A stretch of 64,000 bases of DNA from Haloglomus salinum (GTDB taxonomy: Archaea > Halobacteriota > Halobacteria > Halobacteriales > Haloarculaceae): assembly GCF_024298825.1 (NCBI RefSeq), contig NZ_CP101153.1, positions 3,348,001 to 3,412,000 on the forward strand, in the 5' to 3' direction. The notes beneath the pieces were generated by a model, which ran no database searches, had not been told where the DNA came from, and saw nothing but the letters and a program-made list of their open reading frames with translations. This document shows, in pieces, positions 55,849-58,611 of the stretch. Position numbers and translations under genes: made by a program. Position 1 is the first letter of the stretch. Every line of letters begins with the position of its first letter.

Positions 55849-55871
55849 CCGGGCCAGTGGCAGGCAGGTCC

Positions 55872-56558
55872 ATGGACCTCGACAGACGGACCGTGCTCCG
55901 GCGCGCCGGCGCGGTCGGCCTCGCTGCCCTCGCTGGCTGTACAGGCGGCGACGGTGGCGACGGCAGCGACGGCAGCGACGGCAGCGACGGGGCGAGCGGT
56001 CCGGGTGGTGAATCCCCGTCGGACTCCCCCACCGGCGTATCGAGCCCGTCACCGACGCCGGCCTGTGGCGACTCCAACTACATCGACGAGGGTGAGTTCT
56101 CGTTCGAGTACGGCGTCGTCACCCACAACGACCCGAACAACTACGAGGGCACCGTGCGCATCTACCACATCCGGACGCCGGTCTGCAACTTCCCGGAGGC
56201 GGACCCGACGCCGGCGTTCCCGGGAGCGGGGACGCCGACGCCGACGGTGTCCTCGGCGAACTGCGAGGGCGCCTCCGAGACGCTACTCAAGGAGCAGACC
56301 TACCGGGTCACGAGCGATCTCACCTACGACATCGTGGATGCGCCGGTCACGCCGGATGTCGACACCTACCGGCTGGAGTGGGAGGCCGCCGGCGGGAAGG
56401 ACATCAAGTTCGGGGTCGAGGAGGGGGCCCGAGCGTTCGTGGATACCGACCTCAAGTACGAGTTCTTCGTCTGCAACCCCGGCGCTCGCCGGTTCGGGTT
56501 CGCCGTCGCGGACGGGAAGCCGCGTATCGTGCGGTCGCCGACGGCGGATTCGGAGTGA
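55872..56558 (+). CDS. Tat-exported lipoprotein, unknown function
   Basis: 228-residue secreted lipoprotein. MDLDRRTVLRRAGAVGLAAL leads to the lipobox LAGC, then repeated GSD units (GDGSDGSDGSDG) and a Ser/Pro/Thr linker. The folded part starts near residue 65 with a Cys (ACGDSNYIDEGEF) and has three more Cys (PVCNFP, SANCEG, FFVCNPG), so two disulfides are possible. No family recognised. Similar in style, but not in sequence, to the four-Cys PGF-CTERM proteins at 24-28 kb. Located downstream of, and divergent from, the acyl-CoA ligase. Confidence 0.7.
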   Translation: MDLDRRTVLRRAGAVGLAALAGCTGGDGGDGSDGSDGSDGASGPGGESPSDSPTGVSSPSPTPACGDSNYIDEGEFSFEYGVVTHNDPNNYEGTVRIYHIRTPVCNFPEADPTPAFPGAGTPTPTVSSANCEGASETLLKEQTYRVTSDLTYDIVDAPVTPDVDTYRLEWEAAGGKDIKFGVEEGARAFVDTDLKYEFFVCNPGARRFGFAVADGKPRIVRSPTADSE

Positions 56559-56733
56559 GGCGTATATTTGCGTATAAACTGTCTTGTAATGTGTGGGGTG
56601 CGTAAACATCTCAATAATTTTGAACCCTTGTCAGTAATGAAGGGGATAGTTCATTTTTCCACTGGTGCTATCATATCGAAACGCCCTGGTAGCTCTCACC
56701 GCGACGGCTACGACCGTGATGATCGAGTCCTGT

Positions 56734-56852
56734 TGAAAGCCCCCGGCCGCTCGACCCGCCGGGCCTCGCTGCGCTCCTCACTCCGGTCGCTCCGCTCCCT
56801 CCGTTGCGGTGCTTGCTTCGTCCGGGCGGGGTCGACCGGCCGGCCCCTTTCA
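56734..56852 (-). repeat. Stem-loop element, copy 1
   Basis: A 119-base unit bounded by TGAAAG (56734-56739) and CTTTCA (56847-56852), with inner arms CGGCCGCTCGACCC (56744-56757) and GGGTCGACCGGCCG (56829-56842) that pair at 13 of 14 positions. The enclosed part, read on the minus strand, contains CCGGACGAAGCAAGCACCGC and GAGGAGCGCAGCGAGGCCCG, both shared with copy 2. Looks like a MITE-like or structured-RNA element. Confidence 0.7.
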
Positions 56853-56943
56853 GTCCCACCCTGTTGCCTGTTTCACTAAGCGTTCGTACGTGATGGTTCC
56901 AGACGAGCAGGGAGAGACCCCACACCTCTCCGCGCGAGCGCCG

Positions 56944-57010
56944 GCGTGTTCCAGCACGCTCGCTGACGCTCACGGCTTCGCCGTTCGCTCGGGGGAGCTT
57001 CGCTCCCCCG
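56944..57010. repeat. Short hairpins between the two elements
   Basis: GCGTG-TTCCAG-CACGC (56944-56959), ACGGC-TTC-GCCGT (56972-56984) and CGGGGGAGC-TTC-GCTCCCCCG (56990-57010). The last two have the triloop C-TTC-G, that is C-GAA-G on the minus strand, the same C(GNA)G class as at 8314-8406. Confidence 0.8.
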
Positions 57011-57192
57011 CTGCTCGCGGCTTCCACGGGAGGGCGCTCGCGCGCTTCCTGTTCGTGGAACCGGCCACCGAGCAACTGTTCTCCGGCCGGGAGCGCGTGG
57101 TGAGTGCGGACGCGCGAATCCGCGCGACCTGGGGAAGGGCAGGGGAGCCGCGACCCTCGACGGGCCATGTTCCTGGCGGAATCGAAGGGCGA

Positions 57193-57283
57193 GCGCTCCC
57201 GACCCGGCCCGGACGACGTAAGCACCGCAGGGTGAGCGAAGCGAACCCGAGGAGCGCAGCGAGTCCCGGCCGGTCGAGAGCGC
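57193..57283 (+). repeat. Stem-loop element, copy 2
   Basis: Arms GCGCTCCCGACCCGGCC (57193-57209) and GGCCGGTCGAGAGCGC (57268-57283) pair with one mismatch and one bulge. The enclosed part reads CCGGACGACGTAAGCACCGC and GAGGAGCGCAGCGAGTCCCG, matching copy 1 (opposite orientation) at nearly every position, while the middle differs in length by several bases. The flanking GAGGGCTTCG recalls the GGGGCTTTCA end of copy 1. Confidence 0.7.
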
Positions 57284-57447
57284 GAGGGCTTCGTAGGTGG
57301 TTCACCCGTTGCTGTTGGAGTTGTGAGGGAGTGCGAGGGCTTCGTAATGGGTTCGATTCATCTCGTCGCCATCCCCACCGAACCACGCGACATCCTGCCT
57401 GCCATCCGAGCGGGAGTCTTCAAGTGTGCCCCCCGACAGCGGTGGGT

Positions 57448-58611
57448 ATGCGACTCGACGACGTGCGGGTGCTCGACCTGACCCGCCTCCTGCCGGGACC
57501 GTACGCCACCCAACTGCTCGCCGACATGGGCGCCGACGTGGTCAAGATCGAAGACACCGGCGCCGGCGACTACGCCCGCCACACCCCGCCGGTCACCGAC
57601 CGCGGGACAGGCGCGCTGTTCGACTCGGTCAACCGGGGCAAGCGCTCGGTCGCCATCGACCTCAAGAGCGACGAGGGGCGCGAGGCGTTCCTCGACCTCG
57701 CCGCCGACGCGGATGTCGTCTTCGAGCAGTTCCGCCCGGGCGTCGTGGACCGACTCGGCGTCGATTACGAGAGCGTCCGCGAGGTGAACGACGAGGTCGT
57801 CTACTGCTCGCTCTCGGGCTACGGCAACAGCGGACCGTACCGCGAGCGCGCCGGCCACGACCTCAACTACATCGGTGTCGCCGGCCTGCTCGACATGACC
57901 CGGAACGGCGAGGACGACGCGCCCCGGGTGCCGGGCTACCAGATCGGCGACCTCGGCGGCGGCCTGTTCGCCGCGTTCAGCATCGTCTCGGCGCTCCTCT
58001 CCCGCGAACTCGGGAACACCGGGGGTGAGTACATCGACGTCTCGATGACTGACGTGGTGGCCTCGTTCTCCCAGTCCATCGCGTACGAGGCGCTCGCGGG
58101 CGACGACCCGCGTCCCGGCGAGACGGCGCTGACCGGCCTCTACCCGTGGTACGACGTGTACGAGTGTGCCGACGGCCAGTATCTCACGCTGGGGGCGCTC
58201 GAACCCGAGTTCTGGCAGGCGTTCTGCGAGGAGGTCGGCAAGGAGGAGTGGGTCGGCGAGCACATGACCGGCGACCCGGACCGGCGGGCCGCGCTGCGGG
58301 AGGCGCTGGAGGAGCTGTTCGTCGAGAAGTCCCGAGACGCGTGGCTCGAAGAGCTCAGCGACCAGACGATGACCGGGCCGGTCCTCTCGCCGGCGGAGGC
58401 GTTCGAGCACGAGCAACTCGCCGAGCGGGTCGTGAAGCGACCCGACGACGCGCCGCCGCGGGTCGGCTTCCCCGCGGCCGGGACCGACGCCCCGGAGGAC
58501 ACCGACGAGTCCGTCCCCGGCCACGGCGAGCACACGGCGGCCGTCCTCAGCGAGGCCGGACTGGACGATGACGAGGTCGAGGCGCTCCGTGACGCGGGTG
58601 CCATCAACTGA
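57448..58611 (+). CDS. CaiB/BaiF-family CoA-transferase
   Basis: 387-residue class III CoA-transferase that moves CoA between carboxylic acids. MRLDDVRVLDLTRLLPGPYATQLLADMGADVVKIE, the CoA contact KRSVAIDLKSDEG, YCSLSGYGNSGPY and the catalytic Asp in QIGDLGGGLFAAFS are all present. ATG 57448 begins the conserved N-terminus; the long frame upstream runs through the repeat region and is not coding. Its stop overlaps the LLM oxidoreductase start (TGATG), so the two are coupled. Substrate may be a branched, aromatic or bile-acid-like acyl group. Confidence 0.92.
   Translation: MRLDDVRVLDLTRLLPGPYATQLLADMGADVVKIEDTGAGDYARHTPPVTDRGTGALFDSVNRGKRSVAIDLKSDEGREAFLDLAADADVVFEQFRPGVVDRLGVDYESVREVNDEVVYCSLSGYGNSGPYRERAGHDLNYIGVAGLLDMTRNGEDDAPRVPGYQIGDLGGGLFAAFSIVSALLSRELGNTGGEYIDVSMTDVVASFSQSIAYEALAGDDPRPGETALTGLYPWYDVYECADGQYLTLGALEPEFWQAFCEEVGKEEWVGEHMTGDPDRRAALREALEELFVEKSRDAWLEELSDQTMTGPVLSPAEAFEHEQLAERVVKRPDDAPPRVGFPAAGTDAPEDTDESVPGHGEHTAAVLSEAGLDDDEVEALRDAGAIN

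Follow-up and report, generated by a model that had tools for sequence, protein, structure and literature searches.

The intergenic DNA between positions 56729 and 57299 of the window, by which we mean the whole analysed stretch of 64,000 nucleotides (3348001-3412000 of the 4.19-Mb source genome, which forms one contig), contains two stem-loops that are the two halves of one head-to-head composite of about 570 bp. With a probability of roughly 0.6, this composite represents one copy of a haloarchaea-wide, REPIN-like family of non-autonomous interspersed mobile elements. The initial annotation had recorded two units in opposite orientation at this place, in agreement with their positions according to a repeat finder and the covariance model R1, but it treated them as two separate elements, a view that is replaced here by that of a single composite.

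The composite (56729..57299, 571 bp) was defined by the oriented pairing and the conserved spacing of the stem-loops and comprises, in addition to these, their inner flanks. It is located in an 889-bp gap that separates two genes of the + strand, both outside the element: a predicted lipoprotein-like gene (55857..56558, +, 233 aa) on the left and a CoA-transferase gene (57448..58611, +, 387 aa) on the right, the product of which we take to be a member of the CaiB/BaiF-like CoA-transferase family. Stem-loop copy 1 (56729..56861) reads GGGTGGGACTGAAAGGGGCC...GGGGGCTTTCAACAGG on the - strand and copy 2 (57173..57299) reads CTGGCGGAATCGAAGGGCGAGCG...GAGGGCTTCGTAGGTG on the + strand. Both copies were detected by the repeat finder, by BLASTN and by R1, which was built on an alignment of 35 stem-loops and applied to genomes with a threshold of E <= 1e-3; the corresponding genome coordinates are 3404729-3404861 (-) and 3405173-3405299 (+). 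The repeat finder described them as inverted repeats, with 43 nt at 86% and 30 nt at 90% complementarity. The conserved inner flank of copy 1 (56862..56940, - strand) reads GCGCGGAGAGGTGTGGGG...GGAACCATCACG...AACAGGG in a 45-copy alignment and is traversed by BLASTN matches in genomes of the same genus, and that of copy 2 (57085..57172, + strand), likewise deduced from an alignment of copies, reads CCGGGAGCGCGTGG...CGCGCGACCTGGGGAAGGGCAGGG. The 3' tail of copy 2 (57278..57354, + strand) is tandem-duplicated, with 26-nt repeats at 57278-57303 and 57329-57354 according to the repeat finder, and a similar tail duplication of about 50 bp is present at other copies in the alignment. Near-identical duplicates elsewhere in the genome show homology that runs about 50-85 bp beyond the stem-loops, and we infer that the mobile unit probably reaches some 50-100 bp beyond 56729..57299 on each side.

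A BLASTN search with copy 1 yielded 67 matches in the source genome, and R1 detected 107 stem-loops in this genome, 119 in G001 and 118 in G002, two genomes of the same genus. Among the 33 close pairs (<600 bp) of the source genome, 30 show the divergent order (- then +), two the order (+ then -) and one lies on the same strand, which is a clear excess of divergent pairs (p = 2e-15 against 1/4); in G001 and G002, 34 of the 35 close pairs among those listed are likewise of the type (-,+). The pair spacings in the source genome fall mainly into classes of about 70, 267 and 310 bp, the last of which includes the window pair with 311 bp. Conserved sequence extends past each hairpin both inwards and outwards in the alignment. 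Distant genera contain compact pairs, with 16-26 bp between the hairpins in nine of the 11 pairs examined. The pair is not universal, since the inspected units of genus g23 are single; they carry a structured upstream domain that appears by eye to be related to the inner flanks of the window composite. The units are unevenly distributed along the source contig (6, 15, 13, 10, 17, 7, 4 and 2 in eight equal bins), the last quarter being nearly empty.

The survey with R1 was extended to 292 sampled Halobacteria genomes, of which 249, representing 67 of 78 genera, yielded matches; the stem-loop numbers per genome in this survey, which go up to at least 11, are lower bounds. All 17 positive genomes of a phylum-wide sample belong to the order of the window, and no positive was found outside this order among the genomes listed. 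Moreover, 23 named plasmid records carry copies, including those from Natrinema, Halobaculum, Haloterrigena turkmenica (pHTUR03) and Haloarcula, and the best place lacks an annotated feature in 19 of them; no phage record among haloviruses and phages matched. The scattered haloarchaeal copies mentioned in the initial annotation are borne out, as are the further copies and covarying arms sought by the covariance-model search that it proposed. Since 107 copies exist in the genome and none of the genomes listed from the phylum's other orders yielded a match, the family likeness is not due to chance or to GC composition, which had been named as the outcome that would speak against the elements. 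Rfam 15 gave no match at the gathering score in the window, and a permissive threshold yielded chance-level matches in the region only (E 2.5 and 3.2). The 12-mer GGGACTGAAAGG was not found in any relevant paper, neither RepRanger nor the GTAG/CGTC study contained haloarchaeal text, and no description of a haloarchaeal paired-hairpin family was found in the literature, the term 'undescribed' being provisional, as subscription papers lay outside the search.

The imperfect hairpins of about 115-130 nt share a strongly supported fold. An RNAalifold consensus from a MAFFT alignment (A1) of 35 stem-loops comprises 33 pairs, 21 of which show double changes. A set of 60 distinct stem-loops was drawn almost entirely from other genomes; 93.8% of its cells pair and 28 of the 33 pairs changed on both sides, so that the earlier impression of arms that differ and still pair proved correct. 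The covarying arms surround a core that is not helical and hardly varies. The covariation score of this set is 0.543, compared with 0.148 for shuffles (0 of 500 reach 0.543) and 0.06-0.08 with the partners slid; although the set was aligned to R1 and leans towards the model, the effect far exceeds the slid controls, and alignment A1 agrees. The interior pieces noticed as common to both window copies correspond to the core GACGAMGYAAGCACCGCA / GAGGAGCGCAGCGAG, which is almost invariant across the 35 copies save for compensated changes (C-G to G-C, columns 52-90), and the bounding TGAAAG/CTTTCA of copy 1 is a version of the class-wide form GAAAGGGGC...GGGGCTTTC. Mismatched and internal-loop positions are conserved across copies as well. 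In the apical loop, which follows the pattern GA-N-C-GNA-G-N'-GA, N and N' covary freely (A-U in 13, G-C in 11 and C-G in nine of 35); GNA loops in general are known to form very stable DNA mini-hairpins. The predicted RNA folds of both window copies match the consensus on the sense strand, and the predicted fold of the whole composite is better than those of 20 shuffles (z = -7.5).

The non-Watson-Crick cells at paired columns are distributed asymmetrically, with 61 G.T against 10 A.C in the other-genome set (p = 5e-10) and 38 against nine in the own-genome set (p = 2e-5), although such cells are not independent events. The ratios are still 46:10 and 27:9, respectively, without the richest column, and 16 columns favour G.T and three A.C (p = 0.004). 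As a double-stranded cruciform would be symmetric, this asymmetry points to the GGGACTGAAAGG strand folding alone, in the form of either RNA or single-stranded DNA. Part of the G.T excess could be mimicked by C-to-T mutations biased towards one strand.

Mobility of the unit was deduced from filled and empty sites, which were compared in G001 and G002 with the flanking genes as probes. The composite at 500112-500443 is missing in both genomes, the gap measuring 596 bp in the source genome versus 121 and 127 bp; that at 707958 is missing in G001, that at 1046236 is present in G002 and missing in G001, and those at 1161059 and 1243800 are common to all three genomes. In genus g23, one locus (L105) is occupied in at least G244, G309, G313 and G310 and carries no element in G311, G225, G155, G136, G025 and G277; at another (L124), the element has one orientation in G223 and G191, the opposite one in G244, G277 and G225, and is lacking in others. 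Additionally, the composites 707905-708371 and 1385288-1385753 are separated by 677 kb and share 94.5% identity across 469 bp. No genes were found within the composites examined. The filled and empty sites within one genus together with these recent duplicates indicate that the unit is mobile and non-coding, although empty sites could in part be deletions. The closest named relative at the neighbouring gene, the MAG Halobacteriales QS_4_70_19 (protein identity 91%), lacks the window composite in the corresponding gap (L126:3297-3931), which holds a different small membrane-protein-like ORF instead, and it was rejected as a clean empty site for this reason. Filled/empty alignments revealed no target-site duplication, the intergenic flanks being diverged and the ends approximate. 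At loci L218-L237 of genus g23 (for instance in G244 and G277), the hairpin is followed, 35-70 nt beyond its 3' end, by a recurrent TTATAAAC-like motif, which in some cases lies in tandem-duplicated tails and may mark the true end of the element. The 39 units with gene context all lie between genes, and their surroundings comprise 13 divergent, 18 co-directional and seven convergent gene arrangements, so that no fixed relation to the neighbouring genes is apparent.

The fold itself would also suit a structured RNA family whose hairpin acts after transcription, either in read-through transcripts, where it would affect 3'-end formation or mRNA stability as in REP/BIME elements, or as a small RNA, with mobility being secondary; the head-to-head pair would then offer one sense hairpin to transcription from either side and act bidirectionally. 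The strong covariation, the invariant internal loop and the G.U-type wobble excess on one strand are in favour of this explanation, as is the position of three of four inspected units of genus g23, judged by eye, between convergent genes and in sense orientation to one of them. On the other hand, the inconsistent orientation to the neighbouring genes in the source genome, the lack of a match in Rfam, of a conserved promoter recognised by eye upstream and of a poly-T terminator, and the swapping of whole interiors between orthologous copies of same-genus species, which is unusual for a conserved RNA gene, make it the less probable account, although it is the main rival, and we would give it slightly less than one chance in four.

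This swapping is evident at orthologous sites, where the outer stems mostly persist, whereas the interior, apical hairpin included, has often been exchanged en bloc in both arms together. For instance, the right stem-loop of composite 1046236 has an outer 5' identity of 1.00 and an interior identity of 0.75. Interiors swapped as compensated blocks were observed in the orthologues of G000, G001 and G002 (L084/L213/L214, L069/L211 and L093/L217), and such swaps suggest frequent exchange between copies. The block replacement is consistent with gene conversion among the copies or with the replacement of hairpins. Copies often contain nested hairpins and tandem arrays, and ends are shared between copies in a mosaic manner. 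Locus L039 (G000:C1:2021246-2022045) contains a tandem array with many copies of the 16-mer GAGGAGCGMAGCGAGT and a higher period of 32 bp, apparently grown within one stem-loop copy, and L030 and L009 (G000:C1:2450969-2451094 and 2596104-2596229) carry double-hairpin inserts (...AGATTGTCGGCGGAGCCGACAATCCG) that closely resemble each other and occupy the same site in two stem-loop copies; they represent either one insertion that was later duplicated or a targeted insertion like that of SMRs into palindromes. The joint change of both arms in blocks, the frequent tail duplications and nested insertions, and the mosaic ends would also be expected of selfish or neutral DNA palindromes, in which cruciform-prone inverted repeats are copied by recombination and re-perfected by template switching and gene conversion, so that the covariation would reflect the mechanics of mutation instead of selection acting on a folded strand. 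Such correction should however not leave mismatched and internal-loop positions conserved and uncorrected, and a strand-specific excess of G.T over A.C is unexpected from a double-stranded cruciform or from symmetric correction; we consider this explanation improbable.

With respect to the mobilising machinery, the source genome encodes three Y1 transposases (Y1_Tnp) and 12-13 TnpB proteins. R1 detected no significant stem-loop around the three Y1 genes, a comparison of the TnpB gene positions with the stem-loop list revealed none closer than about 3 kb, and several genomes with at least 11 R1 matches, e.g. G114, G180, G185, G189 and G005, have no Y1_Tnp match. An origin as an IS200/IS605 remnant, whether as a PATE or as the right-end RNA of a TnpB element, is therefore very improbable and was rejected despite the many PATEs derived from such elements in haloarchaea (PMC3119063) and the Y1 and TnpB genes of the source genome, since neither gene type is adjacent to the stem-loops, Y1 presence does not track stem-loop presence, and PATEs lack terminal inverted repeats, whereas the unit is an inverted doublet. 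An autonomous version, in which two stem-loops would enclose a gene, was also rejected: only one gene is enclosed by a close convergent pair (2365553+/2367095-), the hairpins having the wrong orientation and the ORF looking ordinary, and no autonomous transposon with the ends of the family was found in the loci examined. On three haloarchaeal plasmids, a gene for an OB-fold, SSB-like 'DNA-binding protein' is located about 450-560 bp upstream of a stem-loop (L250:1053-1934, L251:1132-2028 and L252:1050-1946). As a partner of the element this protein was discarded, the plasmid neighbourhood being the same in two of the three cases and the association judged coincidental.

Among the known systems, the bacterial REPINs and BIMEs show the closest correspondence: they are intergenic, occur in many copies, replicate as an inverted hairpin doublet, show compensatory changes and contain no transposase (PMC3116915). 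The doublet is shared by the haloarchaeal family, with its predominance of divergent close pairs and the compact pairs of distant genera, and 93% of the REP doublets of P. fluorescens are inverted (PMC3116915). The haloarchaeal hairpins nevertheless differ from REPs in their size, REPs measuring 21-65 nt (PMC6006769), in the conserved internal loop and in the hairpin foot, which reads GGGACTGAAAGGGG instead of the 5' GTAG/GTGG; GTAG/CTAC is restricted to the vicinity of the outer ends in some type II units. The association with a RAYT gene is lacking too, as none of the three Y1_Tnp genes is flanked by significant stem-loops. The PATEs of Haloquadratum are similarly haloarchaeal and non-coding, with palindromic ends, heterogeneous copies and no reported target duplication (PMC3119063), but they share their ends with IS605-type transposons, to which the inverted doublet is unlinked. 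The SMRs of Haloquadratum (80-110 bp) are likewise short; their inverted terminal repeats show no relation to known transposons, they lack target duplications and their means of mobilisation is not known (PMC3119063). They are, however, described as single elements of about 110 bp with >95% identity in one genus, whereas the present family is organised in doublets, class-wide and highly diverged; the comparison with these SMRs (HqIRS40-43/55) concerns organisation, breadth and divergence. The alternatives offered in the initial annotation were a structured RNA and a MITE-like mobile element. The non-autonomous character, the short length, the inverted symmetry and the intergenic insertions recall MITEs, and the mobile, non-coding unit holds in view of empty sites and recent duplicates, but the label MITE is not established, as neither a target-site duplication nor a partner or parent transposase with the same ends was found in the loci examined, where the flanks are diverged.

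According to the preferred interpretation as a REPIN-like mobile family, two imperfect hairpins of about 125 nt, arranged head to head, would form the unit that spreads into intergenic spaces. A trans-acting enzyme might recognise the hairpin as a folded single GGGACTGAAAGG strand and cut or join the outer ends, and the copies would later exchange their interiors, with gene conversion or the replacement of hairpins as the apparent route, so that the fold is kept and the letters diverge. A further reading, to be regarded as tentative, is that a strand-specific folded hairpin containing a conserved non-helical core defines the family, and that a new archaeal machinery, distinct from both RAYT and IS605, moves it, possibly with an RNA intermediate; the family would then be an independent archaeal equivalent of the REPINs.

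Present in 249 of the 292 sampled genomes and with more than 100 hairpins in each of the three genomes fully counted, the paired-hairpin family would have one of the widest distributions of any interspersed repeat in Halobacteria, and most of its copies in sequenced plasmids carry no annotation. Reports of RAYT-type TnpA subclasses are confined to bacteria, archaea containing only subclass 1.1 (IS200-type) (PMC6006769), which raises the testable question of what moves archaeal paired hairpins and whether it sees one folded strand. The hundreds of natural copies provide material to separate selection on the folded strand from mutation by hairpin correction.
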